Assembly (NCBI GenBank): GCA_028290385.1
Contig: JAQGJZ010000255.1
Location: forward strand, 1-12,043
Direction: 5' to 3'
DNA: 12,043 bases
Source of the DNA: Enterovirga sp.
Lineage (GTDB): Bacteria > Pseudomonadota > Alphaproteobacteria > Rhizobiales > Beijerinckiaceae
Positions 1,260-12,043 of the stretch are shown here, piece by piece (positions within the stretch are counted from its first letter, which is position 1; the number at the start of each line of letters is the position of its first letter). The notes under the pieces are model-generated. The model did not search any database. It was not told the origin of the DNA and saw nothing but the letters and a program-made list of their open reading frames with translations. Position numbers and translations under genes: made by a program.

Positions 1260-1307
1260 CGCCGGCGGAAGCCGGCGCCAGGGGCTGGACGCGGTCAGCG
1301 CGTCCAG
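1260..1307. terminator. Two adjacent GC hairpins between convergent genes, possible bidirectional terminator
   Basis: The first hairpin is CGCCGGC (1260-1266), loop GGAA, GCCGGCG (1271-1277), a perfect 7-bp stem starting right after the glutamine-synthetase-like stop. The second is CTGGACGCG (1285-1293), loop of 5, CGCGTCCAG (1299-1307), a perfect 9-bp stem whose loop contains the stop codon of the outer-membrane protein gene on the minus strand. Neither is followed by a T-run, so neither is a classical intrinsic terminator. Their position between two converging genes is the main argument for a role in ending or insulating transcription. Confidence 0.35.
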
Positions 1308-2131
1308 TTGAACGAGTAGGAGATGCTGGCGCCGAACGTCCACTGGTCGCGCGAGCCGATCAGCCGCGTGATCGGGCTGCGCCCGGCATCGCCGATCAGG
1401 CGGTTGTAGCCGCCATAGACCGTGGTGCCCCAGGTGTCGTTCCACTGGTAGGAGGCCGCGGCCAGCACGCCGACGCCGGTCACGTCCGCACCAGGCCGAT
1501 AGGCGGCCGGGATCACGACGTTGGCGGCCGCCTCGGCCGGCGTGACGCCGAAATAGCGGCGCACGTAATTGGCGTCGCCGAAGCCGATCCGCGGGCCGAT
1601 CGACAGGGTGAGCCGGTCGATCGGCGCGATGAAGTCGATTCCGGCATTGCCGACGAGGCCCTCGGCGCCATTCAGGGCGTAGCGGAGCTCGGCGCGGGCG
1701 CGGATGAAGCTGACCGGGAAATACTCGACGAAGAAGCCCGGCTCGACGCTCCAGTTGATCTTGCGCAGGCCGACAAGGCGACGGTCGTCGGAATAGTACC
1801 GACCACCCTGCACGCGCACCACGGGGCCGAATCGCAGCTCCGGAATTTCGTCGTAGAGCGAGATGCTGAAGCCGTCGTCCGGCGCGGCGAAGCGCGGCGG
1901 CTCACTTGCGCGGCGGACGTTCAGGGACGGGTAGGCGAGGCCCGTCAGCTTATCGGAGCCGGGGAAGCGGGGCATGAACTGCCCGTTCGCCGTCACCGTG
2001 ACGACATAGGTCTCGGCCTGCGCCGTGATCGGGCTGCGCAGCGTGCGGAAGCTGCCGAGATCGGCCGCCCCGGCTAGGGTGGAGCAAAGTGCCAGAGGCG
2101 CGGCGACCAACGCCGCGGAACGGAACGTCAT
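1295..2131 (-). CDS. MipA/OmpV family outer-membrane beta-barrel protein
   Basis: A 278-residue protein with an N-terminal signal peptide: MTFR, a hydrophobic stretch, then a likely signal peptidase I site after STLAGA, so the mature chain would start near ADLGSF. The rest alternates polar and aromatic residues with many Gly and Tyr, as in a small outer-membrane barrel. Segments such as FPGSDKLTGLAYPSLNVRR, GFSISLYD and the C-terminal WGTTVYGGYNRLIGDA...TFGASISYSF resemble the MipA/OmpV (MltA-interacting) family. The start at 2131 is chosen because the signal peptide begins there and AGGA lies 9 nt upstream; the frame is open to 2236, but the extra residues are not signal-like. MipA-like proteins are linked to murein-hydrolase scaffolding, but the role of most members is unknown. 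The gene lies downstream of the amidinotransferase on the same strand, 146 bp apart, and could be read from that promoter or its own. Confidence 0.72.
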   Translation of the reverse strand: MTFRSAALVAAPLALCSTLAGAADLGSFRTLRSPITAQAETYVVTVTANGQFMPRFPGSDKLTGLAYPSLNVRRASEPPRFAAPDDGFSISLYDEIPELRFGPVVRVQGGRYYSDDRRLVGLRKINWSVEPGFFVEYFPVSFIRARAELRYALNGAEGLVGNAGIDFIAPIDRLTLSIGPRIGFGDANYVRRYFGVTPAEAAANVVIPAAYRPGADVTGVGVLAAASYQWNDTWGTTVYGGYNRLIGDAGRSPITRLIGSRDQWTFGASISYSFNWTR

Positions 2132-2142
2132 CTTCTGCAATC

Positions 2143-2182
2143 CTGAATCGGCGCGATCAAACCGCACCACTTGTCGATTCAG
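2143..2182 (-). promoter_or_regulatory. 8-bp perfect inverted repeat in the leader of the outer-membrane protein gene
   Basis: CTGAATCG (2143-2150) and CGATTCAG (2175-2182) are perfect reverse complements separated by 24 nt. On the minus-strand transcript the repeat lies between the candidate -10 element and the start codon at 2131. Its proximal arm runs into the AGGA ribosome-binding sequence, with the AG included in the stem. It could be an mRNA hairpin that partly hides the ribosome site, or a binding site for a dimeric regulator. Function is inferred only. Confidence 0.35.
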
Positions 2183-2211
2183 AGTTAACGTCCCGTGCCC
2201 CGCGACATCAA
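2183..2211 (-). promoter_or_regulatory. Candidate promoter of the outer-membrane protein gene
   Basis: On the minus strand TTGATG (2206-2211) is followed after 17 nt by TTAACT (2183-2188). The -35 match to TTGACA is good, the -10 match to TATAAT is weak, and the spacing is ideal. It sits about 50 nt upstream of the start codon at 2131. The rest of the 146-bp gap between the two minus-strand genes shows only an imperfect hairpin (GGAGGCAC at 2229-2236 with GTGCCTTCC at 2250-2258) near the end of the amidinotransferase gene. Confidence 0.25.
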
Positions 2212-2277
2212 CGCGACGAAGCCGTGTCGGAGGCACTCCGATGCTCGCTGTGCCTTCCCGACATCAGGCTTGGCCGT

Positions 2278-3450
2278 TCAGGAGTAGTCCTGCAGCGTTC
2301 CGCGGCGCCGAATGTCCAAGGTCGCACAATGGAACGCGCCGCCGAACGGCCCATAGGCCAGGAAGGGAATCGGCAGCGGCTCGAAGCCCCAATCCTTCAG
2401 GGCGCGGATCAGGGTCGGCTGCGAGGCATCCACCACGACCTTCTTCTCGGTTAGCGAGAGGACATTGATGGAGGTCCAGGGCGAGCACATCGAGATCTTG
2501 GCCATGATGCCCGACACCGGATCGGGCCGCGGCGCGACCAGCACGTCCCAGCGCTTCAGCGCGGGCGGCAGGTTGGCGACGTCGCAGTAATCCGGGTTCA
2601 CTAGCACCTTGCCGGGCGCCAGCGGCATGAACGTCGAATCGATGTGCATCGGCTGGGTGCACAGGCTCGGGATCTCGTGGATGCGGTAGGTGTCGCCGAG
2701 GTGGCGCTGAAGCCAGGCAATGCCGAAGCGGTTGGTCACGTTGGAGACCGTGACGAACAGGTCGCGCCCGCAGCGGACGAAATCGGCGGCATCGAAGACC
2801 GGCTCGAACTCGTTGATCGTGTACTCGATCGGTCCGCCCTTGGTCGGCAGCTTGTAATCGTAGCGGTACAGATCGTCGGTCAGCTGGGGGCGCGGAGCCG
2901 AGGTCCAGCGCGCGCCGCCCTGGAAGTATTCCTTGAACAGGGGACGGTAGGCGTCCTGCTCGAAATGGCGCGAGCGCCAGCACATCGGGCTTTCGATGAT
3001 CTCGTCACCGACCACCATGTAGCCGTCACGCGGGCAGGCGATGGTGAAGCCGCGCGAGGACCAGCTCGGCGTCCGGTACTTCTTGGAGAAGTCCATGATC
3101 TCCGGGCGGCGCACCTTCACGCCTTCGCCCTCGAGCAGCGCAATGAAGCCGTCGAGCTCCTTCTGCGCGAGCTTCTTCATCCAGCCCGGATATTTCCAGC
3201 CAGCCGCGAACCGATACAGCCCCATCACCGAGGGCGGCAGGTTGTACGTGACCGTGATGTGGTTGGACGGGATGGTCGCGCCTTCGAGGCGGCCGACGAT
3301 GACCTCCTCCAGCGGATCCCACTCGTTGTAGGACATCACCGTCGCGGAGGACGTTGCAGGCCCCCGCGTCTCTCCGCGAGAGGTGCCGCCTGGCGTCTCC
3401 GTCAGGTCGCGCTCCACCACGTCCGATTGCGAGGTCACCCCGAGATCCAC
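2278..3450 (-). CDS. L-arginine:glycine amidinotransferase (AGAT) family protein; candidate hopanoid aminocyclitol amidinotransferase
   Basis: The family transfers an amidino group from arginine to an amine, leaving ornithine. Similarity to vertebrate AGAT, judged from memory, runs through the whole core: SYNEWDPLEEVIVGR near the N-terminus, VVGDEIIESPMCWRSR, EFEPVFDAADF, QPMHIDSTF and GGAFHCATLDIRRRGTLQ near the end. In the 390-residue form the catalytic triad is Asp220 (first Asp of FDAADF), His269 and Cys375, with the same Asp-to-His spacing as the human enzyme (49). The Asn two residues before the Met-His pair in human AGAT is Gln here, in a loop that contacts the acceptor, so the acceptor need not be glycine. 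I chose GTG at 3450 because GGAGAGAGG lies just upstream. The frame is open to GTG 3513, and the core itself starts only near ATG 3336, so the first residues form a polar tail of uncertain extent. The gene is divergent from hpnL-hpnI-hpnJ-hpnK. The family call is firm; the hopanoid acceptor is inference. Confidence 0.9.
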   Translation of the reverse strand: MDLGVTSQSDVVERDLTETPGGTSRGETRGPATSSATVMSYNEWDPLEEVIVGRLEGATIPSNHITVTYNLPPSVMGLYRFAAGWKYPGWMKKLAQKELDGFIALLEGEGVKVRRPEIMDFSKKYRTPSWSSRGFTIACPRDGYMVVGDEIIESPMCWRSRHFEQDAYRPLFKEYFQGGARWTSAPRPQLTDDLYRYDYKLPTKGGPIEYTINEFEPVFDAADFVRCGRDLFVTVSNVTNRFGIAWLQRHLGDTYRIHEIPSLCTQPMHIDSTFMPLAPGKVLVNPDYCDVANLPPALKRWDVLVAPRPDPVSGIMAKISMCSPWTSINVLSLTEKKVVVDASQPTLIRALKDWGFEPLPIPFLAYGPFGGAFHCATLDIRRRGTLQDYS

Positions 3451-3605
3451 GTCGCCTCTCTCCAGTTGCTGCCCGGTTGTTCCAGCCGGCCGATTTTCAG
3501 CCAATGCGACCACAAACCGGGGGCATCGTTGAACGATTTCGGATAGATGCCGCAGCCTAAAGCACGAGTTTGGTTCGGAAAGCCAGAGCGGGACCCCTGG
3601 GCAAG
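3451..3605. promoter_or_regulatory. Divergent control region between the amidinotransferase and the hpnL operon
   Basis: This 155-bp interval separates the divergent starts at 3450 (-) and 3606 (+) and must hold signals for both genes. I see no convincing -35/-10 pair on either strand. It contains a near-perfect dyad, ATCGTT-G-AACGAT (3525-3537), which could be an operator. If the longer forms of the two proteins are used (GTG 3513 and TTG 3570), the true gap shrinks to 56 bp and the dyad stays inside it. Confidence 0.4.
3455..3463 (-). promoter_or_regulatory. Strong ribosome-binding site deciding the amidinotransferase start
   Basis: The minus strand reads GGAGAGAGG followed by CGAC and then GTG at 3450-3448. 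This is the best Shine-Dalgarno sequence near any start candidate of this gene. GTG 3513 has no comparable sequence upstream, and ATG 3336 would remove most of the tail before the conserved core. Confidence 0.55.
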
Positions 3606-4619
3606 ATGAAGCGCTTGACGATCCTGGCTGCCCTTGCCGGCCTCGTTCTGTTCACCCTCGTGGTGGCGTTTTCCGGCGCCGGCGAGGTCCTGGACGCCGT
3701 GCGGAGCGCCGGCTGGGCGACGCTGATCGTGGTGCTGATCCGGGCGGCCGCGATCGCGGCGGACGGCATCGGCTGGAACCTGCTCTTTCCGCCGGGCCGG
3801 CGGCTCGACACGCATGTCGCGATCCTTCTGCGCTGGGTGCGCGAGGGCATCAATCAGCTCCTCCCGGTCGCGGCGGTCGGCGGCGATTTCATCGGCGCAC
3901 GCCTCGCGACCTTTTGGCGCTGCGAGGGCGCGATGGCCTGGGCGAGCGTGATCGCCGACATCGCCGTTCAGGCCGGGACCCAGCTCCTGTTCGCGGTGCT
4001 CGGGCTCGGGCTTCTGGTCTGGCTCGTCGGTGACAGCGAGATCGTCCACTACCTGGCGGGCGGGCTCGGGCTCGCCGCGCTCGGCATCGTCGGCTTCTTT
4101 CTTCTGCAGCGCCGCGGCGGCGCGAGGCTGTTCCTGGCCATCGGGCAGAAGCTCGCGGCGGGGCGCGAATGGGCGGCGCTGGCCGCGGTGGAGCGTTTTT
4201 ACGAGCGCCTGCGTGAGATCTACGCGAATCCGCGCGGGGTCACGGCCTCGGTCGCCGTGCATTCGGCGGTCTGGATCTTCGGCTCGCTCGAAGTCTGGGT
4301 CGCGTTCCACTTCATGGGCCACCCGATCAGCTTCGCCGAGGCGATCGTGATCGAGAGCCTCAGCCAGGCCGTGCGCGGCGCGGCCTTTGCCATCCCGGGC
4401 GGCCTCGGCGTCCAGGAAGGCGGCTTCGTCGCCATCTGCGCGCTGTTTGGCATCCCGGCGGGCCCCGCGGTGGCGCTGTCGCTGGTGAAGCGCGTCTCCG
4501 ACCTCGCGATCGGGCTGCCGGCGCTTGTCGCCTGGCAATGGATCGAGGGCCGCCGCGCGCTCGGCGGACCATCGTCCGCGCTCGGCGCCGAGGGCGGCCT
4601 GGCGGAGAGCCGCCGGTGA
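3606..4619 (+). CDS. hpnL: Hopanoid biosynthesis-associated membrane protein HpnL
   Basis: A 337-residue polytopic inner-membrane protein of the lysylphosphatidylglycerol-synthase transmembrane-domain/UPF0104 type. It begins with a hydrophobic segment (about residues 4-22), followed by segments near 36-52, 113-142, 148-167, 213-235, 258-283 and 288-310. The family signature PGGLGVQEGG is at residues 264-273. Its place directly before hpnI, with a 4-bp overlap, identifies it as HpnL. Its biochemical role is not established; transport or flipping of a tailored hopanoid or of a sugar donor is a guess. The start at ATG 3606 puts the hydrophobic segment at the very N-terminus; TTG at 3570 in the same frame would add 12 residues. 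It is the first gene of the string hpnL-hpnI-hpnJ-toxin/antitoxin-hpnK. The hydrophilic C-terminal tail (about 315-337) may simply carry the ribosome site of hpnI. Confidence 0.85.
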   Translation: MKRLTILAALAGLVLFTLVVAFSGAGEVLDAVRSAGWATLIVVLIRAAAIAADGIGWNLLFPPGRRLDTHVAILLRWVREGINQLLPVAAVGGDFIGARLATFWRCEGAMAWASVIADIAVQAGTQLLFAVLGLGLLVWLVGDSEIVHYLAGGLGLAALGIVGFFLLQRRGGARLFLAIGQKLAAGREWAALAAVERFYERLREIYANPRGVTASVAVHSAVWIFGSLEVWVAFHFMGHPISFAEAIVIESLSQAVRGAAFAIPGGLGVQEGGFVAICALFGIPAGPAVALSLVKRVSDLAIGLPALVAWQWIEGRRALGGPSSALGAEGGLAESRR

Positions 4620-5761
4620 GCCTCGCCGCCGGCCTCGCGGGGCTGCTGCTGCTGCTGTCCGTTGCGGGTCTCGCCTACTTGGTGATGGCGATCGTCTTCG
4701 TGCGACGGCTCGCGGACCGTCCGACGCCGCCCTCGCCGTCGGCACCGTCCGTCACGATCCTGAAGCCGCTCCACGGGGCCGAACCCGGCCTCGCCGAGAA
4801 CCTCGCGACGTTTCTGCGCCAGGATTATGCCGGGCCGGTGCAGATCGTCTTCGGGGTGCAGAATCCCGGCGATCCCGCCCTCGCAATCGTGCGCGATCTC
4901 GCGCAGGCCTACCCCGAGGCGGATATCGAGCTGGTGGTCGACGGCCGGCTCCATGGGACCAACCGCAAGGTCTCGAACCTCATCAACATGGCCGAACGGG
5001 TCCGGCACGAGGTGATCGTGCTCGCCGACAGTGACATGAGCGTGCGGTCGGACTACCTGCGGCGGCTCGTCGGCGAACTGAGCCGCCCCGGTGTCGGCGC
5101 GGTGACCTGCCCGTATCACGGCCTGCCGCGCGGAACGCTCTGGTCGCGCCTCTCCGCCATGGCGATCGACACCCATTTCCTGCCGAGCGTCGCGGTCGGG
5201 CTCGGGCTCGGGCTCGCCAAGCCCTGCATGGGCTCGACGATCGCGCTTCGCCGAGAAACCCTGGACGCGATCGGGGGCTTCCGTCCGCTGGCCGACGAAC
5301 TCGCCGACGATTACCTGCTCGGCGCCGCCGTTCGGCGTCTCGGGCAGGACGTCGCGGTGGCGCCGTTCACGGTCGGCCACGCCTGCAACGAGAGCTCTTT
5401 CCGCGAGCTCGCCCGGCAGGAGCTGCGCTGGGTGCGCACGATCCGGCAGATCGACCCGGCTGGGCATGCGGGGTCGCTGGTGTCGCATCCGCTGCCCCTG
5501 GCTCTCCTCGCGCTCTGCCTTGCCCCGGGCCTGCCGGCGGCCGCGGCCGCGACGGCAGCCGTCGCCCTTCGGTTTGCCCTATGCCTTGCCGTGAGGCAGG
5601 CCTTCGGCGTAAAGGGACCGGTTTACGGGCTCGCGCCGCTGCGCGACCTGCTTTCCTTCGGCATCTTCGTCGCGAGCTTCTTTGGCCGCGGCGTGAGCTG
5701 GCGAGGGCACAGCTACGACGTGACGTCGACGGGCGTCCTCACCGCCAAGACGAGGCACTGA
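4616..5761 (+). CDS. hpnI: Hopanoid glycosyltransferase HpnI (GlcNAc transfer to bacteriohopanetetrol)
   Basis: A 381-residue ceramide-glucosyltransferase-like (GT21/GT2) enzyme. The HpnI family adds N-acetylglucosamine to the terminal hydroxyl of bacteriohopanetetrol. Residues 4-29 form an N-terminal membrane anchor. The catalytic domain follows: VTILKPLHG (46-54), an Asp at 86 in the nucleotide-sugar site, DSD at 138-140 (the metal-binding DxD), ADD at 230-232 (third Asp region) and QELRW at 268-272 (the QxxRW motif). Further hydrophobic segments occur at the C-terminus, as in ceramide glucosyltransferases. The start is GTG 4616, overlapping the hpnL stop as GTGA, with GGAG at 4604-4607; an ATG at 4538 would add 26 Arg-rich residues that look like out-of-frame hpnL sequence. 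GGGCTC is repeated three times at 5198-5215 and encodes Gly-Leu repeats in a hydrophobic segment. HpnK and HpnJ act on its product. Confidence 0.9.
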   Translation: MSLAAGLAGLLLLLSVAGLAYLVMAIVFVRRLADRPTPPSPSAPSVTILKPLHGAEPGLAENLATFLRQDYAGPVQIVFGVQNPGDPALAIVRDLAQAYPEADIELVVDGRLHGTNRKVSNLINMAERVRHEVIVLADSDMSVRSDYLRRLVGELSRPGVGAVTCPYHGLPRGTLWSRLSAMAIDTHFLPSVAVGLGLGLAKPCMGSTIALRRETLDAIGGFRPLADELADDYLLGAAVRRLGQDVAVAPFTVGHACNESSFRELARQELRWVRTIRQIDPAGHAGSLVSHPLPLALLALCLAPGLPAAAAATAAVALRFALCLAVRQAFGVKGPVYGLAPLRDLLSFGIFVASFFGRGVSWRGHSYDVTSTGVLTAKTRH

Positions 5762-5768
5762 ACGCGAG

Positions 5769-7205
5769 ATGATGCGCACGCTCTTCCTTCAGGCGCCGTC
5801 CTTTGACGGCTTCGACGGTGGCGCCGGCTCGCGCTACCAGGCGCGCCGGGAGATCCAGTCCTACTGGTATCCGACTTGGCTGGCGCAGCCAGCCGCGCTG
5901 GTCGAGAACTCCAAGCTGATCGACGCGCCGCCCCACAAGACGAGCCTTCAGGACGTGCTCGGCCAGGTGCGCGACTACGATCTCGCGATTCTGCACACCT
6001 CCACCCCGTCCTTTGATTCGGACGTGAAGGTGATCGAGGCCATGAAGGCCACGAACCCGAACCTGAAGGTCGGGCTCATCGGCGCCAAGGTCGCGGTTCA
6101 GTCCAACGAGAGCCTGGAAGAGGCCCCGGTGGTCGATTTCGTGGCCCGCAACGAGTTCGACTTCACGGTCAAGGACGTCGCCGACGGCAAGGCGTGGTCC
6201 GACATCAAGGGTCTGTCCTACCGCAACAGCCAGGGCGTCATCGTGCACAACGAGGACCGGGCCGTGATGCACGACATGGACACGCTCCCGTTCGTGACGC
6301 CGGTCTACAAGCGCGACCTCGTCATGGAGAACTACTTCATCGGCTACCTGAAGCACCCCTACATCTCGTTCTACACGGGGCGGGGCTGCAAGAGCCGGTG
6401 CACGTTCTGCCTGTGGCCGCAGACGGTCGGCGGGCACCGCTATCGCACCCGCTCCGTCGGGCACGTCATCGAGGAGGTGAAGTACATCCTCAAGGCGTTC
6501 CCGCAGATGAAGGAGCTGATGTTCGACGACGACACCTTCACGGACGATCTTCCGCGCGCGGAGGCGATCGCGAAGGAGCTCGGCAAGCTCGGCGTCACCT
6601 GGTCGTGCAACGCCAAGGCGAACGTGCCGCGCGACACCCTGAAGGTGCTGAAGGACAACGGCCTTCGCCTGCTGCTCGTCGGTTACGAGAGCGGCAACCA
6701 GCAGATCCTGCACAACATCAAGAAGGGCATGCGGGTCGAGGTCGCCGAGGAGTTCACGAAGAACTGCCACGAGCTCGGCATCAAGATCCACGGCACCTTC
6801 ATCCTCGGCCTGCCAGGCGAGTCGCAGGAGACGATCCGCGAGACGATCAAGTTCGCGACGCGGATCAACCCGCACACTATCCAGGTCTCGCTGGCCGCGC
6901 CTTACCCGGGCACGTTCCTGTACAAGCAGGCGATGGAGAACGGCTGGCTCGACGAGAAGAACGCCGAGCTCATCAACGACAACGGCATCCAGATCGCGCC
7001 GCTGCACTATCCGGGCCTGAGCCACACCGAGATCTTCACCTCGGTCGAGGATTTCTACCGGAAGTTCTACTTCCGCATCCCGAAGATCGCCTCGATCGTC
7101 GGCGAGATGGTGACCGAGCCGGACATGATGAAGCGCCGGCTGCGCGAAGGCGTGGAGTTCTTCCGCTTCCTCAAGGAGCGCCGGGGCGTCGCGCAAGCGG
7201 CGTAG
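5769..7205 (+). CDS. hpnJ: Radical SAM protein HpnJ (cyclitol ether formation)
   Basis: A 478-residue radical SAM enzyme. The [4Fe-4S] motif is Cys207-X3-Cys211-X2-Cys214 in GRGCKSRCTFC. The N-terminal ~170 residues resemble the Rossmann-like domain of B12-binding radical SAM proteins, but I see no DxHxxG cobalamin motif. The barrel contains MFDDDTFTDD, LLVGYESGNQQIL and HGTFILGLPGES, all typical of the superfamily. In the established pathway HpnJ converts the hexose ring of BHT-glucosamine to the five-membered amino-cyclitol of BHT cyclitol ether. It starts 7 bp after hpnI; the start could be either of two adjacent ATGs (5769 or 5772), with only a weak ribosome site. An antitoxin gene follows after 15 bp, so the next hopanoid gene, hpnK, lies 469 bp downstream rather than adjacent. 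Confidence 0.93.
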   Translation: MMRTLFLQAPSFDGFDGGAGSRYQARREIQSYWYPTWLAQPAALVENSKLIDAPPHKTSLQDVLGQVRDYDLAILHTSTPSFDSDVKVIEAMKATNPNLKVGLIGAKVAVQSNESLEEAPVVDFVARNEFDFTVKDVADGKAWSDIKGLSYRNSQGVIVHNEDRAVMHDMDTLPFVTPVYKRDLVMENYFIGYLKHPYISFYTGRGCKSRCTFCLWPQTVGGHRYRTRSVGHVIEEVKYILKAFPQMKELMFDDDTFTDDLPRAEAIAKELGKLGVTWSCNAKANVPRDTLKVLKDNGLRLLLVGYESGNQQILHNIKKGMRVEVAEEFTKNCHELGIKIHGTFILGLPGESQETIRETIKFATRINPHTIQVSLAAPYPGTFLYKQAMENGWLDEKNAELINDNGIQIAPLHYPGLSHTEIFTSVEDFYRKFYFRIPKIASIVGEMVTEPDMMKRRLREGVEFFRFLKERRGVAQAA

Positions 7206-7220
7206 ATCCAGGGACTGGCT

Positions 7221-7421
7221 GTGGCCAACGTCGCAGAGATCGAGAAGGCGGTCGCCGAGCTCCCTCCGCAGGAGCTCGCCGAATTTCGGGCTTGGTTCGA
7301 GCGCTTCGAGGCTGAACGTTTCGATCGTCGAATCGAGCAGGACGGCTCGGCTGGCCGGCTCGACCGGCTCGCTGACGAAGCATTGGTCGAGGCCCGGTCC
7401 GGTCGCGCTCGCGAGCTGTGA
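7221..7421 (+). CDS. Small antitoxin-like protein, partner of the following ParE/RelE-type toxin
   Basis: A 66-residue acidic, helical protein. An opening VAEIEKAVAELPPQELAEFRAW helix pair is followed by a segment rich in Asp, Arg and Leu (RLDRLADEALVEAR). This pattern matches short antitoxins encoded just before RelE/ParE-like toxins in Proteobacteria. It would bind and neutralise the toxin. No DNA-binding ribbon or helix-turn-helix is obvious, so autoregulation is doubtful. It starts with GTG, preceded by AGGGA about 6 nt upstream, and its TGA overlaps the GTG of the toxin gene (GTGA at 7418-7421), the translational coupling usual for such pairs. It sits in the same direction as, and only 15 bp after, hpnJ. 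Confidence 0.7.
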   Translation: MANVAEIEKAVAELPPQELAEFRAWFERFEAERFDRRIEQDGSAGRLDRLADEALVEARSGRAREL

Positions 7422-7672
7422 GGCATTTCGCGAGCGGTCGATTCTGGACGGCTTACGCGGCTCTGCCACCAGCTGTTCGTGAACTCGCCGATCGCAATTA
7501 CGAACTGCTCAAGCGCGACCCGCATCATCCTTCGCTCCACCTGAAGAAAGTTGGGCGGTTCTGGTCTGTCCGCGTCGGGCTGCGCTACCGGGCGCTTGCG
7601 GTCGAGGAAAAGGGCGATCTTGTCTGGTTTTGGATCGGCTCTCACGCCGATTATGACGCCCTGATCGGTTGA
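7418..7672 (+). CDS. RelE/ParE family toxin
   Basis: An 84-residue basic protein with the compact RelE/ParE fold pattern. A helical N-terminal part (FWTAYAALPPAVRELADRNYELLKR) is followed by the strand region HPSLHLKKVGRFWSVRVG, LRYRALAVEE and the closing VWFWIGSHADYDALI. The W-S-V-R-x-G-x-x-Y-R-A-L block and the terminal G-S-H-x-x-Y-D motif are characteristic of type II toxins of this superfamily, which act on mRNA at the ribosome or on DNA gyrase; which of these applies cannot be told here. The start is GTG overlapping the antitoxin stop. Its TGA (7670-7672) overlaps a TTG and precedes the hpnK ATG by 2 nt. The reading frame looks intact. It could be a functional module or a domesticated remnant. 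Confidence 0.75.
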   Translation: MRHFASGRFWTAYAALPPAVRELADRNYELLKRDPHHPSLHLKKVGRFWSVRVGLRYRALAVEEKGDLVWFWIGSHADYDALIG

Positions 7673-7674
7673 GC

Positions 7675-8520
7675 ATGGATCAGGCCGCAACTTCCCTCGT
7701 GGTCACGGCCGACGATTTCGGCCTCTCGCCCGAGGTCAACAAGGCCGTCGAGATCGCGCATCGGGACGGCATCCTGTCGGCCGCGAGCCTGATGGTTGCG
7801 GAGCCCTGGTGCGCCGACGCCGTCGCGCGGGCCCGGCGGCTGCCGAACCTCGCTGTCGGCCTGCACCTGACGCTGGTCGAGGGGAGGGCGGTGCTCCCCC
7901 GTGCCGCGATCCCCGACCTGATCGGGCCGGACGGTCGGCTGCGCACCGATCTCGCCCGCTACGGTGCGGAGATCTTCTTTCGCCCCCGCGTGAAGCGGCA
8001 GGTCGCGGCCGAGATCCGGGCACAGTTCGAAGCCTTTGCCCGGACAGGCCTCGCGCTCGACCACGTCAACGCCCACAAGCACTACCACCTCCACCCGACG
8101 ATCGCGGGCCTTGTCCTGCAGATCGGGCGGGAGTTCGGCATGACGGCCCTGCGCGTCCCGGTCGAGCCGGCGGCAGTGCTCTCGGTTGTCGAGCCGGTCG
8201 CGCGCGGGCTCGAGGCCCGGGTGGCGGGACCATACGCCACGCTGCTGCGGCGACGGGCGCGGCGCGCCGGCTTCGCGGCGGCCGATCAGGTCTTTGGGCT
8301 CGCTTGGTCAGGCGCGATGACGCCCACGCGGGTTGCGGGGCTCCTGCGGCATCTGCCGCCGGGCCGCACCGAAATTTATACGCACCCGGCAGTCGCCGGC
8401 GGGTTTGACGGCGCCGCGTCGGGCTACCGCTACGCCGAGGAACTCGCCGCGCTCGTCGCCCCGGAGGTGATCGAGGCTGCGGCGGCGATTCCGCGCGGCG
8501 GCTGCGCGGCCTGGAGCTGA
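7675..8520 (+). CDS. hpnK: Hopanoid deacetylase HpnK (ChbG/YdjC family)
   Basis: A 281-residue YdjC/ChbG-like carbohydrate deacetylase. The family signature TADDFG (residues 11-16) gives the catalytic/metal Asp pair 13-14. Metal-binding histidines are at VGLHLTL (His64) and in the His-rich segment DHVNAHKHYHLHP (129-141). In the established pathway HpnK removes the acetyl group from BHT-N-acetylglucosamine to give BHT-glucosamine, freeing the amine that remains on the cyclitol ether. The start is ATG 7675, 2 nt after the toxin stop; TTG 7669, overlapping that stop, would add two residues. Translation is probably coupled to the toxin gene. It ends the tight + strand string; a 329-bp gap follows before ispH. 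Confidence 0.9.
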   Translation: MDQAATSLVVTADDFGLSPEVNKAVEIAHRDGILSAASLMVAEPWCADAVARARRLPNLAVGLHLTLVEGRAVLPRAAIPDLIGPDGRLRTDLARYGAEIFFRPRVKRQVAAEIRAQFEAFARTGLALDHVNAHKHYHLHPTIAGLVLQIGREFGMTALRVPVEPAAVLSVVEPVARGLEARVAGPYATLLRRRARRAGFAAADQVFGLAWSGAMTPTRVAGLLRHLPPGRTEIYTHPAVAGGFDGAASGYRYAEELAALVAPEVIEAAAAIPRGGCAAWS

Positions 8521-9825: not shown

Positions 9826-10980
9826 GTGGGTATTCCTCTCCGCCAAGTCGTCGATGTCGGCGGCTACATCGTCAAGCAGCATCTGAAGGGCAACAAGCGG
9901 TATCCGCTGGTCCTGATGCTGGAACCGTTGTTCCGCTGCAATCTCGCCTGCGCGGGCTGCGGCAAGATCGATTATCCGGACGAGATCCTCAACCGGCGCA
10001 TCTCGGTCGAGGATGCGCTCGGGGCCGTGGACGAGTGCGGTGCGCCCGTCGTCGTGATGGCGGGCGGCGAGCCGCTCATCCACAAGGACCTTCCGAAGAT
10101 CGTCCAGGGCATCATCGCGCGCAAGAAATACGCGATCGTGTGCACGAACGCGCTGCTGCTCGAGAAGAAGATCGACGATTACAAGCCGTCGCCCTACTTC
10201 ACCTGGTCGATCCATCTCGATGGCGACGAGCAGATGCACGACAAGTCCGTCTGCAAGGCCGGTGTCTACGAGAAGGCCGTCGATGCGCTGAAGCTCGCCA
10301 AGCAGAAGGGCTTCCGCGTCACAATCAACTGCACCTTCTTCAACGATGCCGATGCCGATCGGATCGCCACGTTCTTCGACACGGTCACTGAACTCGGCGT
10401 CGACGGCATCACGGTGTCGCCGGGCTACGCTTACGAGCGCGCGCCGGATCAGCAGCACTTCCTGAACCGCGCCAAGACGAAGGAAATCTTCCGCGGCGTG
10501 TTCAAGCGCGGCAACGGCGGCAAGAAGTGGGCCTTCAACCAGTCGATGATGTTCCTCGACTTCTTGGCCGGCAACCAGACCTACAAGTGCACGCCTTGGG
10601 GCAACCCGACCCGCACCGTGTTCGGCTGGCAGAAGCCCTGCTACCTGCTCGGCGAGGGCTATGCGGCGACGTTCAAGGAGCTGATGGAAGACACGAACTG
10701 GGACAATTACGGCGTCGGCAACTACGAGAAGTGCGCCGATTGCATGGTCCATTCGGGCTTCGAAGCGACCGCCGTGAACGACACCGTGCGCCGTCCCTGG
10801 GTGGCCGCGAAGGTCGCCCTGTTCGGCATCAAGACCGATGGGCCGATGGCGCCCGAGATCCCGCTCGATAAGCAGCGTCCCGCCGAATACGTCTTCTCGC
10901 GGAACGTCCAGAAGAAGCTGTCAGAGATCCAGGCCGAGAAGGCTGCCGTCCAGGCTCAGAAGGCCGCGAACGCGGCCTAA
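9826..10980 (+). CDS. hpnH: Adenosylhopane synthase HpnH (radical SAM)
   Basis: A 384-residue radical SAM enzyme that attaches the 5'-deoxyadenosyl group to diploptene, the first step of C35 hopanoid side-chain formation. The cluster motif is Cys38-X3-Cys42-X2-Cys45 in RCNLACAGC, with the SAM-binding GGE at residues 80-82 (MAGGEPLIH). The C-terminal domain (DUF3463-type) carries four more cysteines: Cys255-X11-Gly267-X4-Cys272 and Cys303-X2-Cys306, resembling the twitch/SPASM auxiliary-cluster pattern. The tail (about 363-384) is an Ala/Gln/Lys-rich helix. It starts with GTG 9826 after a purine-rich GAGAGAAG stretch, 19 bp past the ispH stop. The last 60 bp overlap the 3' end of hpnG on the opposite strand. 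Confidence 0.95.
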   Translation: MGIPLRQVVDVGGYIVKQHLKGNKRYPLVLMLEPLFRCNLACAGCGKIDYPDEILNRRISVEDALGAVDECGAPVVVMAGGEPLIHKDLPKIVQGIIARKKYAIVCTNALLLEKKIDDYKPSPYFTWSIHLDGDEQMHDKSVCKAGVYEKAVDALKLAKQKGFRVTINCTFFNDADADRIATFFDTVTELGVDGITVSPGYAYERAPDQQHFLNRAKTKEIFRGVFKRGNGGKKWAFNQSMMFLDFLAGNQTYKCTPWGNPTRTVFGWQKPCYLLGEGYAATFKELMEDTNWDNYGVGNYEKCADCMVHSGFEATAVNDTVRRPWVAAKVALFGIKTDGPMAPEIPLDKQRPAEYVFSRNVQKKLSEIQAEKAAVQAQKAANAA

Positions 10981-11610
10981 GGTGCGAAACGCGACCGCGG
11001 CATCGCGCGCGGTCGCGATCAGCCCGGGGATCTGACGCGGCTCGCGCGCGAGCGAGCGCAGAACCCCGAGCACGTCCACCGAGCCGTCCGGCCGCATGGC
11101 CGTGCCGGCGGCCGGCGGCAGCACGTGATCCGCGCCGTCCGAGATGACGCGAAGCGCCCCGAAGGGCAGGCCGTGCCGCGCCGCGAAGGCGGCCGCCACA
11201 TGCGATTCCATGTCGACCGCGTCCGCCGCGTAGCGCCTGAACGCCGTCTGCTTGGCGGCGGGGGTCAGGAGAGGCTCGTCCGTCCCGGCGACCGCGCATG
11301 CGACGAACGGCACGCCCGCGCCGCGCAGGCGCTCCGCCCATTGCTTCTGAAACGCCGTCGCCGTCGGGCAGGATGCGTCCGCGCTCCGGATCTCCGTCGC
11401 GATCAGCACGTCGCCGACTTGGCGCGCCGGATCCAGCGCGCCCGCGATGCCGAAGCTCACGACGGCCCGAATGGAGGCGAGGTCCGCGGCCGCGAGCTGG
11501 CGCTCCAGCCCGGCCCGGCTGCCGCCCCCCGCAATGGCCAGGATTCCGGGACCTGCGGCGATCCGGGCCTCCTTGGTGAGGCCGGTAACCGCCAGGATCT
11601 TTGGGCTCAT
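10921..11610 (-). CDS. hpnG: Adenosylhopane nucleosidase/phosphorylase HpnG
   Basis: A 229-residue member of the PNP/UDP phosphorylase-MTA/SAH nucleosidase superfamily. HpnG removes adenine from adenosylhopane on the route to ribosylhopane and bacteriohopanetetrol. Visible motifs are an N-terminal GILAIAGGG strand-loop, VVSFGIAGALDP (51-61), AVDMESHVAAAFA with the nucleoside-binding Met-Glu (134-135), and ISDGAD with the catalytic Asp at 158. The start is ATG 11610; no strong ribosome site is visible. It lies 61 bp downstream of the shc stop on the same strand, so an shc-hpnG operon is likely. Its last 19 codons are read from the strand opposite the end of hpnH, so the two genes converge and overlap by 60 bp. 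Confidence 0.92.
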   Translation of the reverse strand: MSPKILAVTGLTKEARIAAGPGILAIAGGGSRAGLERQLAAADLASIRAVVSFGIAGALDPARQVGDVLIATEIRSADASCPTATAFQKQWAERLRGAGVPFVACAVAGTDEPLLTPAAKQTAFRRYAADAVDMESHVAAAFAARHGLPFGALRVISDGADHVLPPAAGTAMRPDGSVDVLGVLRSLAREPRQIPGLIATARDAAVAFRTLGRVRGLLSLDGSLLGLDL

Positions 11611-11671: not shown

Positions 11672-12043
11672 TCAGAGTCCCCAAACCACCTGCCGCGTGT
11701 TGGAGCGCTGCAGGTTGCGGTAGCGCGCCATGGCCCAGAGCGGGAAGTATTTCGCGTAGCCGTGGTAGCGCAGGTAGAACACGCGCGGGAAGCCGCCGCC
11801 CGTGTAATCCTCCTCCGGCCACAGCCCGTCTTCCTGCTGCGCCGCCGACAGATAGGCGATGCCGCGCGCGACGGCGGGGTGGTCGGCCTCGCCTGCCGCC
11901 ATCAGGCCCAGCAGTGCCCAGGCCGTCTGCGACGCGCGCGAGGGGGCGGGCTCATAGCCGCGATACTCCAGCTTGTAGCTGTCGCAATCCTCGCCCCAGC
12001 CGCCATCCGGGTTCTGGATGGACACGAGCCAGGTCACGGCCTT
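11672..12043 (-). CDS. shc: Squalene-hopene cyclase, C-terminal 123 residues (continues beyond the window)
   Basis: The minus-strand frame is open from the window edge to TGA at 11674-11672. It contains two QW repeats typical of triterpene cyclases: QNPDGGWGE near the start and QQEDGLW mid-way. The closing FPRVFYLRYHGYAKYFPLWAMARYRN is the characteristic C-terminus of squalene-hopene cyclases. The enzyme is a monotopic inner-membrane protein that folds squalene into hopene and diplopterol, the entry point of the pathway served by the neighbouring genes. The catalytic DXDD motif and most of the protein lie outside the window. It is followed by hpnG on the same strand. The name hpnF is also used. 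Confidence 0.95.
   Translation of the reverse strand, partial: KAVTWLVSIQNPDGGWGEDCDSYKLEYRGYEPAPSRASQTAWALLGLMAAGEADHPAVARGIAYLSAAQQEDGLWPEEDYTGGGFPRVFYLRYHGYAKYFPLWAMARYRNLQRSNTRQVVWGL

Follow-up and report, generated by a model that had tools for sequence, protein, structure and literature searches.

Organization of the locus

The window, the whole 12,043-nucleotide stretch of Enterovirga sp. DNA that we analysed (contig JAQGJZ010000255.1, assembly GCA_028290385.1), carries a gene for an AGAT-type amidinotransferase (2278–3513, minus strand) that lies head-to-head with hpnL-hpnI-hpnJ-hpnK. The gene encodes 411 residues from its longest start, with an alternative GTG start at 3450, 21 codons downstream, and its product is a predicted hopanoid cyclitol-ether/glucosamine amidinotransferase. 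Counted from the longest starts, an intergenic stretch (3514–3569) separates it from the divergent hpnL (3570–4619, plus strand), for which the ATG at 3606 is a likelier start than 3570. This hpnL belongs to an AGAT-linked subtype and encodes a flippase-like membrane protein of the LPG_synthase_TM type. It is followed on the plus strand by hpnI (4541 or later to 5761), encoding the bacteriohopanetetrol (BHT) N-acetylglucosaminyltransferase (TIGR03472, 465 bits, cut-off 310), by hpnJ (5769–7205), encoding the radical SAM protein of cyclitol ether formation (TIGR03471, 826 bits, cut-off 578), and by hpnK (7669–8520), encoding the deacetylase that yields a free amine (TIGR03473, 352 bits, cut-off 233). 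All four products score above their NCBIfam cut-offs, which confirms the divergent arrangement described in the original prediction. A ParE-like open reading frame (7418–7672) sits between hpnJ and hpnK.

Farther along lie ispH, the adenosylhopane synthase gene hpnH (9826–10980, plus strand; TIGR03470, 551 bits, cut-off 225), the gene for the hopanoid-associated phosphorylase HpnG (10921–11610, minus strand; TIGR03468, 200.5 bits, cut-off 187.1) and the 3′ part of shc, encoding squalene-hopene cyclase (11672–12043, minus strand). The shc product matches TIGR01507 at positions 529–639 of 640 with 149 bits; it stays below the full-length cut-off because the gene is cut by the window end and its 3′ end alone is present. 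The ferritin-like protein X matched PDB sequences at chance level.

The amidinotransferase and its active site

Searched against solved sequences (E 1e-3), the AGAT protein gave seven matches, every one an amidinotransferase, among them SxtG (416 bits), human AGAT (311 bits, the best of four sequences), HsvA (280 bits) and StrB1 (259 bits). A Pfam search returned no match even at E 1. The overall fold of AGAT and StrB1 is common to the locus protein. Asp241, His290 and Cys396 (longest start) align with Asp254, His303 and Cys407 of the human enzyme, and this catalytic triad is present in all 48 clade rows and all 34 other rows of our alignment. The locus thus encodes a complete AGAT-family enzyme, as had been predicted; the residues originally given as Asp220, His269 and Cys375 are the right ones, but were numbered from the GTG at 3450.

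The glycine-specific residues of human L-arginine:glycine amidinotransferase (GATM) are absent from the locus protein. Arg322, which we take to bind the substrate carboxylate, is replaced by Tyr309, and Asn300, which like Arg322 presumably has a role in substrate binding, is replaced by Gln287. The change from Arg322 to Tyr309 is the more uniform of the two (tyrosine in 45 and phenylalanine in 3 of 48 clade rows). The replacement of Asn by Gln in the acceptor loop, to which attention had been drawn earlier, is real in the locus enzyme but not uniform in the clade, where the column holds glutamine in 37, threonine in 8 and asparagine in 3 of 48 rows.

The known relatives differ from the locus enzyme in setting and acceptor. 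Human AGAT serves creatine synthesis, whereas the genomic setting here is hopanoid synthesis. StrB1, the inosamine-phosphate amidinotransferase of streptomycin biosynthesis, acts on a soluble inosamine phosphate and has an arginine at the position of human Arg322 (read via the L116 alignments), where the locus enzyme has a tyrosine. SxtG, going by its PDB title, belongs to the cyanobacterial saxitoxin pathway, a toxin pathway with another acceptor. HsvA is a polyamine amidinotransferase with a polyamine acceptor, and we know of no hopanoid link for it.

Linkage to hopanoid genes

To describe linkage we used the best 80 named loci, 55 of which come from Methylobacterium or Methylorubrum, and counted neighbours within 10 kb. 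HpnL was found at 73 of these loci, HpnJ at 67, HpnI at 64 and HpnK at 63; at least one of the four was present at 76, the exceptions being L038, L091, L098 and L101. HpnL lies no more than 420 bp from AGAT in 72 of the 80 loci, in three orientations, which rules out a chance neighbourhood of AGAT and hpn genes. M. extorquens and M. organophilum are absent among these best 80 named loci.

The clade spans three phyla: Pseudomonadota, Thermodesulfobacteriota and Cyanobacteriota. Two cyanobacteria and one Desulfuromonadales metagenome-assembled genome (MAG) hold AGAT directly inside hpnI/J/K clusters. In G045, four of five Acetobacteraceae loci, Paramagnetospirillum and Burkholderia sp. H160, an AGAT-HpnL pair occurs without hpnI/J/K in the stretch examined. 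Many clade AGATs are accompanied by an HpnL subtype of their own, even at sites away from the hpn cluster, which is a new finding; the partner exceeds the HpnL cut-off where examined. No hpn gene adjoins the clade AGAT in four cyanobacterial genomes (G436, G462, G463 and G482), and none was present in the stretches examined of a sister branch (G798, two Bradyrhizobium plasmids).

Co-occurrence with HpnJ and HpnI

In the order sample of 287 genomes, clade AGAT is present in 10, of which 9 contain HpnJ, compared with 13 of 287 overall. Enrichment with HpnJ was seen in the order and class samples and is weaker in cyanobacteria, where HpnJ occurs in 3 of 5 clade-AGAT genomes, a weak association (p = 0.015, rising to 0.07 when the centre of the sample is left out). 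A further set contained HpnJ in 15 of 17 clade-AGAT genomes. Where the AGAT-HpnL pair stands apart, HpnJ is encoded elsewhere in the genome in four of five genomes searched (G299, G301, G302 and G303, not G300), and also in G045. Of 15 chosen genomes, 12 have an HpnI that exceeds its cut-off. No acceptor-making genes were found for the sister-branch member G798 or for two MAGs of unstated completeness, G300 and G482; apart from these clear exceptions, the clade was not found to be frequent in genomes without hpnI, hpnJ and hpnK. The association of this clade with hpnJ, proposed from the single locus, is thus supported across genomes.

Clade AGAT is missing from most HpnJ-containing genomes (20 of 24 in the class sample and 19 of the 22 cyanobacterial ones), and the enzyme would therefore perform an accessory step at best. 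In the Desulfuromonadales order sample, clade AGAT occurs in 1 of 108 genomes, the sample's own centre. Two HpnJ-containing cyanobacteria (G565 and G566) have a distant AGAT alone. Two clade members, G304 and G462, contain HpnI and HpnH with no match to HpnJ; that they retain HpnI fits the reported guanidine-substituted BHT-glucosamine.

Reported lipids and producers

According to PMC5642901, the first descriptions of guanidine-substituted BHT cyclitol ether came from methylotrophs, Methylobacterium among them, and the lipid has been proposed as a tracer for Geobacter; the dominance of Methylobacterium and Methylorubrum among our loci matches the group of the reported lipid. Geobacter sulfurreducens, Zymomonas mobilis and Dolichospermum are producers named in the same source. 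For the first two, no clade member appeared among the named proteins of the best 120 homologs listed, most of which lack an organism name; for Dolichospermum, none appeared among the named matches listed, which include one plasmid match that is 38% identical.

A 2025 survey (PMC12583986) cultured Enterovirga rhinocerotis, Methylobacterium soli, M. oxalidis and Methylorubrum rhodesianum. Genomes of all four species carry clade AGAT (L027, L053, L045 and L043, respectively), with strain labels that agree with the survey for E. rhinocerotis and M. soli and differ for M. oxalidis and M. rhodesianum. The string 'guanid' does not occur in the survey's main text, although the cultured species carry AGAT, which counts against assigning the guanidine step to this gene. 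According to the survey, the neighbourhood of the cluster offers no additional obvious candidates besides hpnA, hpnB, hpnL and hpnM. In the open-access literature we found no assigned gene for guanidine substitution of BHT cyclitol ether, in agreement with the original prediction, no paper joining hopanoid or bacteriohopane with amidinotransferase or hpnL with flippase, and, for amidinotransferase in Methylobacterium, only works unrelated by title.

Proposed function and alternatives

The whole HpnI-HpnK-HpnJ pathway to BHT cyclitol ether is present at the locus, which adds AGAT to it; a guanidine step is absent from the pathway as presented in the main text of PMC12583986. As reported there, HpnI transfers N-acetylglucosamine onto BHT, HpnK frees the amine and HpnJ converts the sugar into the cyclitol ether. 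We propose that hopanoid side-chain biosynthesis has an amidinotransferase of its own, the product of the AGAT gene. Cys396, assisted by Asp241 and His290, would accept the amidino group from arginine, and the enzyme would then pass it to the amine freed by HpnK, on BHT cyclitol ether or, where HpnJ is absent, on BHT glucosamine, yielding the guanidine-substituted lipid and ornithine. The lipid would then probably be moved across the membrane by the adjacent HpnL subtype, or by an ArnE/F-like protein in some HpnL-less lineages. Our analysis shows the fold and the catalytic residues of the enzyme, the clade to which it belongs, and its linkage to and co-occurrence with hpn genes; the donor, the acceptor, the step order and the role of HpnL are inferred. 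We consider it probable that the locus enzyme amidinates the amine of BHT cyclitol-ether/glucosamine; comparative genomics thus supports the original interpretation, with the enzyme as a candidate for this activity. The tyrosine at the position of human Arg322 is in itself a point against this assignment.

The main substrate might instead be another hopanoid amine, either BHT-glucosamine before HpnJ acts or the 35-aminobacteriohopanetriol made by HpnO. The HpnJ-less genomes G304 and G462 are compatible with this, as are the guanidine-substituted BHT-glucosamine reported from cyanobacteria (PMC5642901) and the 81% of an aminotriol isomer reported for E. rhinocerotis, a carrier of the locus (PMC12583986). 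However, most genomes examined have HpnJ alongside clade AGAT, and the latter source describes HpnO in Hyphomicrobiales only among the species studied, whereas the AGAT clade extends to cyanobacteria and Thermodesulfobacteriota. We regard such a main substrate as improbable.

That the enzyme is a soluble-amine AGAT for glycine, lysine or a polyamine, carried with hopanoid genes by happenstance, is very unlikely. It shares its fold and triad with human AGAT and HsvA, JGI entries label it a glycine amidinotransferase, and neither the Bradyrhizobium plasmid sister branch nor four cyanobacterial clade members have hpn neighbours. Against this stand the recurrence of HpnL adjacency in differing orientations and lineages, the co-occurrence with HpnJ, and the loss of the equivalents of human Arg322 in 48 and Asn300 in 45 of 48 rows. 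Moreover, none of the 10 order-sample genomes with a distant AGAT (38–41% identity) contains HpnJ, and the AGATs from the 9 of these genomes that were placed all fall outside the clade. Linkage and residue changes thus make a glycine AGAT a weak rival at most. Equally hard to sustain is the idea that AGAT and HpnL together modify and export some other amino lipid or amino glycan, and that they lie beside hpn genes because both sets of genes have a function in the outer membrane. The pairs without nearby hpnI/J/K and the membership of HpnL in the LPG_synthase_TM family would fit this; the partner's HpnL score, the HpnJ genes elsewhere in most such genomes, and the AGATs lying within hpnI/J/K clusters argue against it.

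With the gene as the amidinotransferase of hopanoid side chains, it could serve as a marker by which genomes and metagenomes are read for the guanidine-substituted lipid, and the role of the charged hopanoid head group would become testable by a single knockout.

A possible role for HpnL

AGAT and its dedicated HpnL subtype may constitute a portable module of two genes, which converts hopanoids that bear an amine to guanidinium lipids and carries these across the membrane. In this branch, the part of hopanoid flippase would then fall to HpnL, with ArnE/F-like transporters taking its place in some cyanobacteria and Syntrophobacteraceae. We advance this proposal tentatively and rate it as somewhat doubtful. 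To our knowledge, there is no earlier case of an AGAT-family enzyme acting on a membrane lipid; if the module exists, it would provide the first, together with a function for HpnL. The function of HpnL is described as not yet established in the 2025 survey (PMC12583986), and its pairing with AGAT offers a concrete lead.

Linkage of the amidinotransferase gene to hopanoid genes

The AGAT-type amidinotransferase gene (2278–3513, minus strand) is flanked on its right by plus-strand hpnL, hpnI, hpnJ, a ParE-like ORF, hpnK, ispH and hpnH, in that order, with hpnG and the 3' end of shc on the minus strand at the right end of the window. The original prediction had placed the gene divergently to hpnL-hpnI-hpnJ-hpnK, and this arrangement bears it out. 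The best reading of its function is the role proposed there, that of a predicted hopanoid amidinotransferase acting on the amine of BHT cyclitol ether or BHT glucosamine.

A scan of named genomes with a 14-member AGAT alignment gave at least 588 pattern matches, at least 561 of them confirmed, and the best 80 loci were kept. Among these 80, which are the closest relatives (55 are Methylobacterium or Methylorubrum; raw counts overstate independence) and many of which are shortened by contig ends, matches within at most 10 kb of AGAT were found for HpnL in 73, HpnJ in 67, HpnI in 64 and HpnK in 63. The HpnL match lies no more than 420 bp from the AGAT match in 72 of the 80; 64 of these pairs are divergent, seven codirectional (Acetobacteraceae, Paramagnetospirillum and Burkholderia sp. 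H160) and one convergent (a Desulfuromonadales MAG). Outside Methylobacterium and Methylorubrum, HpnL is present in 18/25 and HpnJ in 12/25 of the best 80 loci. The nearest relative among them, Enterovirga aerilata, has identical gene order and 91% protein identity in AGAT.

Four of the 80 loci (L038, L091, L098 and L101) showed no HpnL, HpnJ, HpnI or HpnK within at most 10 kb of AGAT. HpnJ is encoded elsewhere in three of the corresponding genomes (G297, G298 and G305) and was not found in a search of the fourth, Crenalkalicoccus roseus (G304). Four more cyanobacterial genomes (G436, G462, G463 and G482) showed no hpn gene adjoining AGAT. Genome G053 has two AGATs, one of which (locus L022) has no adjoining hpn genes and is instead accompanied by protein X, a ferritin-like candidate, and a CDP-alcohol phosphatidyltransferase-like gene. 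The cyanobacteria Rhizonema and Scytonema encode consecutive HpnJ, HpnK, X, a second HpnK, HpnI and two tandem AGATs (L103:7203–9496 and L104:9959–12253). The tandem copies split into two sister subclades, and each may serve its own acceptor.

Phylogeny and co-occurrence with HpnJ

Maximum-likelihood analysis of 82 AGAT-family proteins, with deep placements uncertain owing to some long branches, groups every hpn-linked row in a single 48-row clade (support 100/99) that spans Pseudomonadota, Thermodesulfobacteriota and Cyanobacteriota; the more distant AGATs of the same samples fall apart from it. Its sister branch comprises AGATs of two large conjugative Bradyrhizobium plasmids and genome G798 (L246:8977–10101, L247:8986–10149 and L168:1480–2595), which share 81–88% identity with one another and about 58% with the window's protein. 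No hpn genes were found around these three in the stretches examined.

Co-occurrence of AGAT (match of at least 500 bits) with HpnJ, expected from the original prediction, was supported in two samples and weaker in a third. In the window's order (287 genomes), 10 genomes have AGAT, 13 HpnJ and nine both; in the class sample (289 genomes, sharing at least G000, G058, G158 and G238 with the order sample), the counts are 4, 24 and 4; and in a cyanobacterial order (176 genomes) they are 5, 22 and 3, including the sample's centre. Fisher tests, which ignore relatedness, gave 2e-13, 4e-5 and 0.015, respectively, the last rising to 0.07 without the centre. Two cyanobacterial HpnJ genomes (G565 and G566) have only a distant AGAT, at 35–39% identity. 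Among genomes of the order sample that belong to the window's own family, AGAT occurs in 7/7 HpnJ genomes and is absent from 6/7 HpnJ-less ones, the exception being G798 with its 58%-identical relative.

Among the HpnJ-less genomes with AGATs of the clade (G798 being counted with them here), both HpnI and HpnH exceed cut-off in G304 and G462; G482, a genome of 1.8 Mb, has HpnH and no HpnI match; G798 has HpnH, with HpnI below cut-off only; and the MAG G300 has neither HpnI nor HpnH, but two HpnL. In genomes that lack HpnJ, BHT glucosamine may serve as the acceptor, which would extend the original prediction.

An AGAT-linked HpnL subtype and other flippase-like proteins

Several genomes (G045, Acetobacteraceae G299–G302 and Paramagnetospirillum G303) keep AGAT apart from hpnI, hpnJ and hpnK, yet with an adjoining HpnL, and have another HpnL elsewhere. 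In 28 selected genomes, not a random sample, two HpnL over cut-off were found in seven of the 21 AGAT genomes, one in eight and none at E 1e-40 in six; the AGAT-less HpnJ genomes have exactly one in 7/7. An HpnL tree of 37 rows places 18/20 AGAT-adjacent HpnL in one 21-row clade (support 99/95), of which three rows do not adjoin AGAT, one being from the AGAT-less G632. The adjacency label changes five times on this tree versus a shuffled mean of 12.5 (0/500 shuffles as low). Clade AGATs are often accompanied by their own HpnL subtype.

Among the genomes examined for HpnL, none was found in three cyanobacterial and two Syntrophobacteraceae genomes or in G798. Four of the six encode EamA/ArnE/F-like proteins close to AGAT or HpnI: directly upstream of AGAT in G298 (L091:9626–10012), after AGAT and X in G463 (L155:8363–9172), and next to HpnI in G305 (L220:623–1463) and G290 (L221:3017–3884); none was found in the stretches examined of the other two, G436 and G798. 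Outside the set of genomes searched for HpnL, such proteins follow AGAT and X in G482 (L154:49–849) and adjoin HpnI in G462 (L219:2834–3673). Scores are well below curated ArnE/F cut-offs and indicate family resemblance only. Because two unrelated flippase-like protein types occupy similar places, the arrangement suggests that a hopanoid lipid is moved across the membrane.

Relation to published work

Named producers of guanidine-substituted hopanoids include M. extorquens and M. organophilum. A 2025 survey of Alphaproteobacteria (PMC12583986) gives the order HpnI-HpnK-HpnJ and reports no obvious further candidate genes near the hpn cluster; neither 'guanid' nor 'amidino' occurs in its main text. 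Four species cultured there have genomes carrying the AGAT locus, with strain labels agreeing for two. The absence of these terms may speak against production of a guanidine-substituted hopanoid in culture; alternatively, the study may not have looked for the compound or may not have detected it. In the open-access literature, we found no paper joining an amidinotransferase with hopanoid or bacteriohopane.

Protein X and flanking genes

Protein X (~280 residues) is encoded at L103:3964–4839, L155:7539–8366, L154:846–1673, L232:10157–12027, L237:6172–8018, L226 near 7280, L242:8310–9206 and L022:1–515. It has no Pfam match over cut-off, and its rubrerythrin and DUF455 matches are chance-level at E 0.1. 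Residues E54, E83-E84xxH87 and E125 are kept in 8/8 rows and an ExRH motif in all seven full-length rows, a pattern resembling that of ferritin-like di-iron proteins. In 4/20 AGAT-less hpnJ regions examined, all four from family f4, X is encoded between HpnJ/HpnK and HpnL; it also occurs in two cyanobacterial hpn clusters and adjoins AGAT in three genomes. Protein X is a candidate hopanoid enzyme, perhaps a hydroxylase.

The source genome of the contig (3.1 Mb, 552 contigs) is 78% complete. The ParE-like toxin-domain ORF (7418–7672) lies between hpnJ and hpnK, overlaps the hpnK start and recurs in one of the best 80 of at least 561 loci (L025). At the left end, a glutamine-synthetase-like gene (3–1259) contains an in-frame TAG at 453–455, which is either a true interruption or an assembly error. 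Adjoining AGAT is a MipA/OmpV-like outer membrane protein gene (1295–2236, minus strand), also present in nine of the same 80 loci, from Enterovirga, Methylobacterium and one Rhizobiales MAG.
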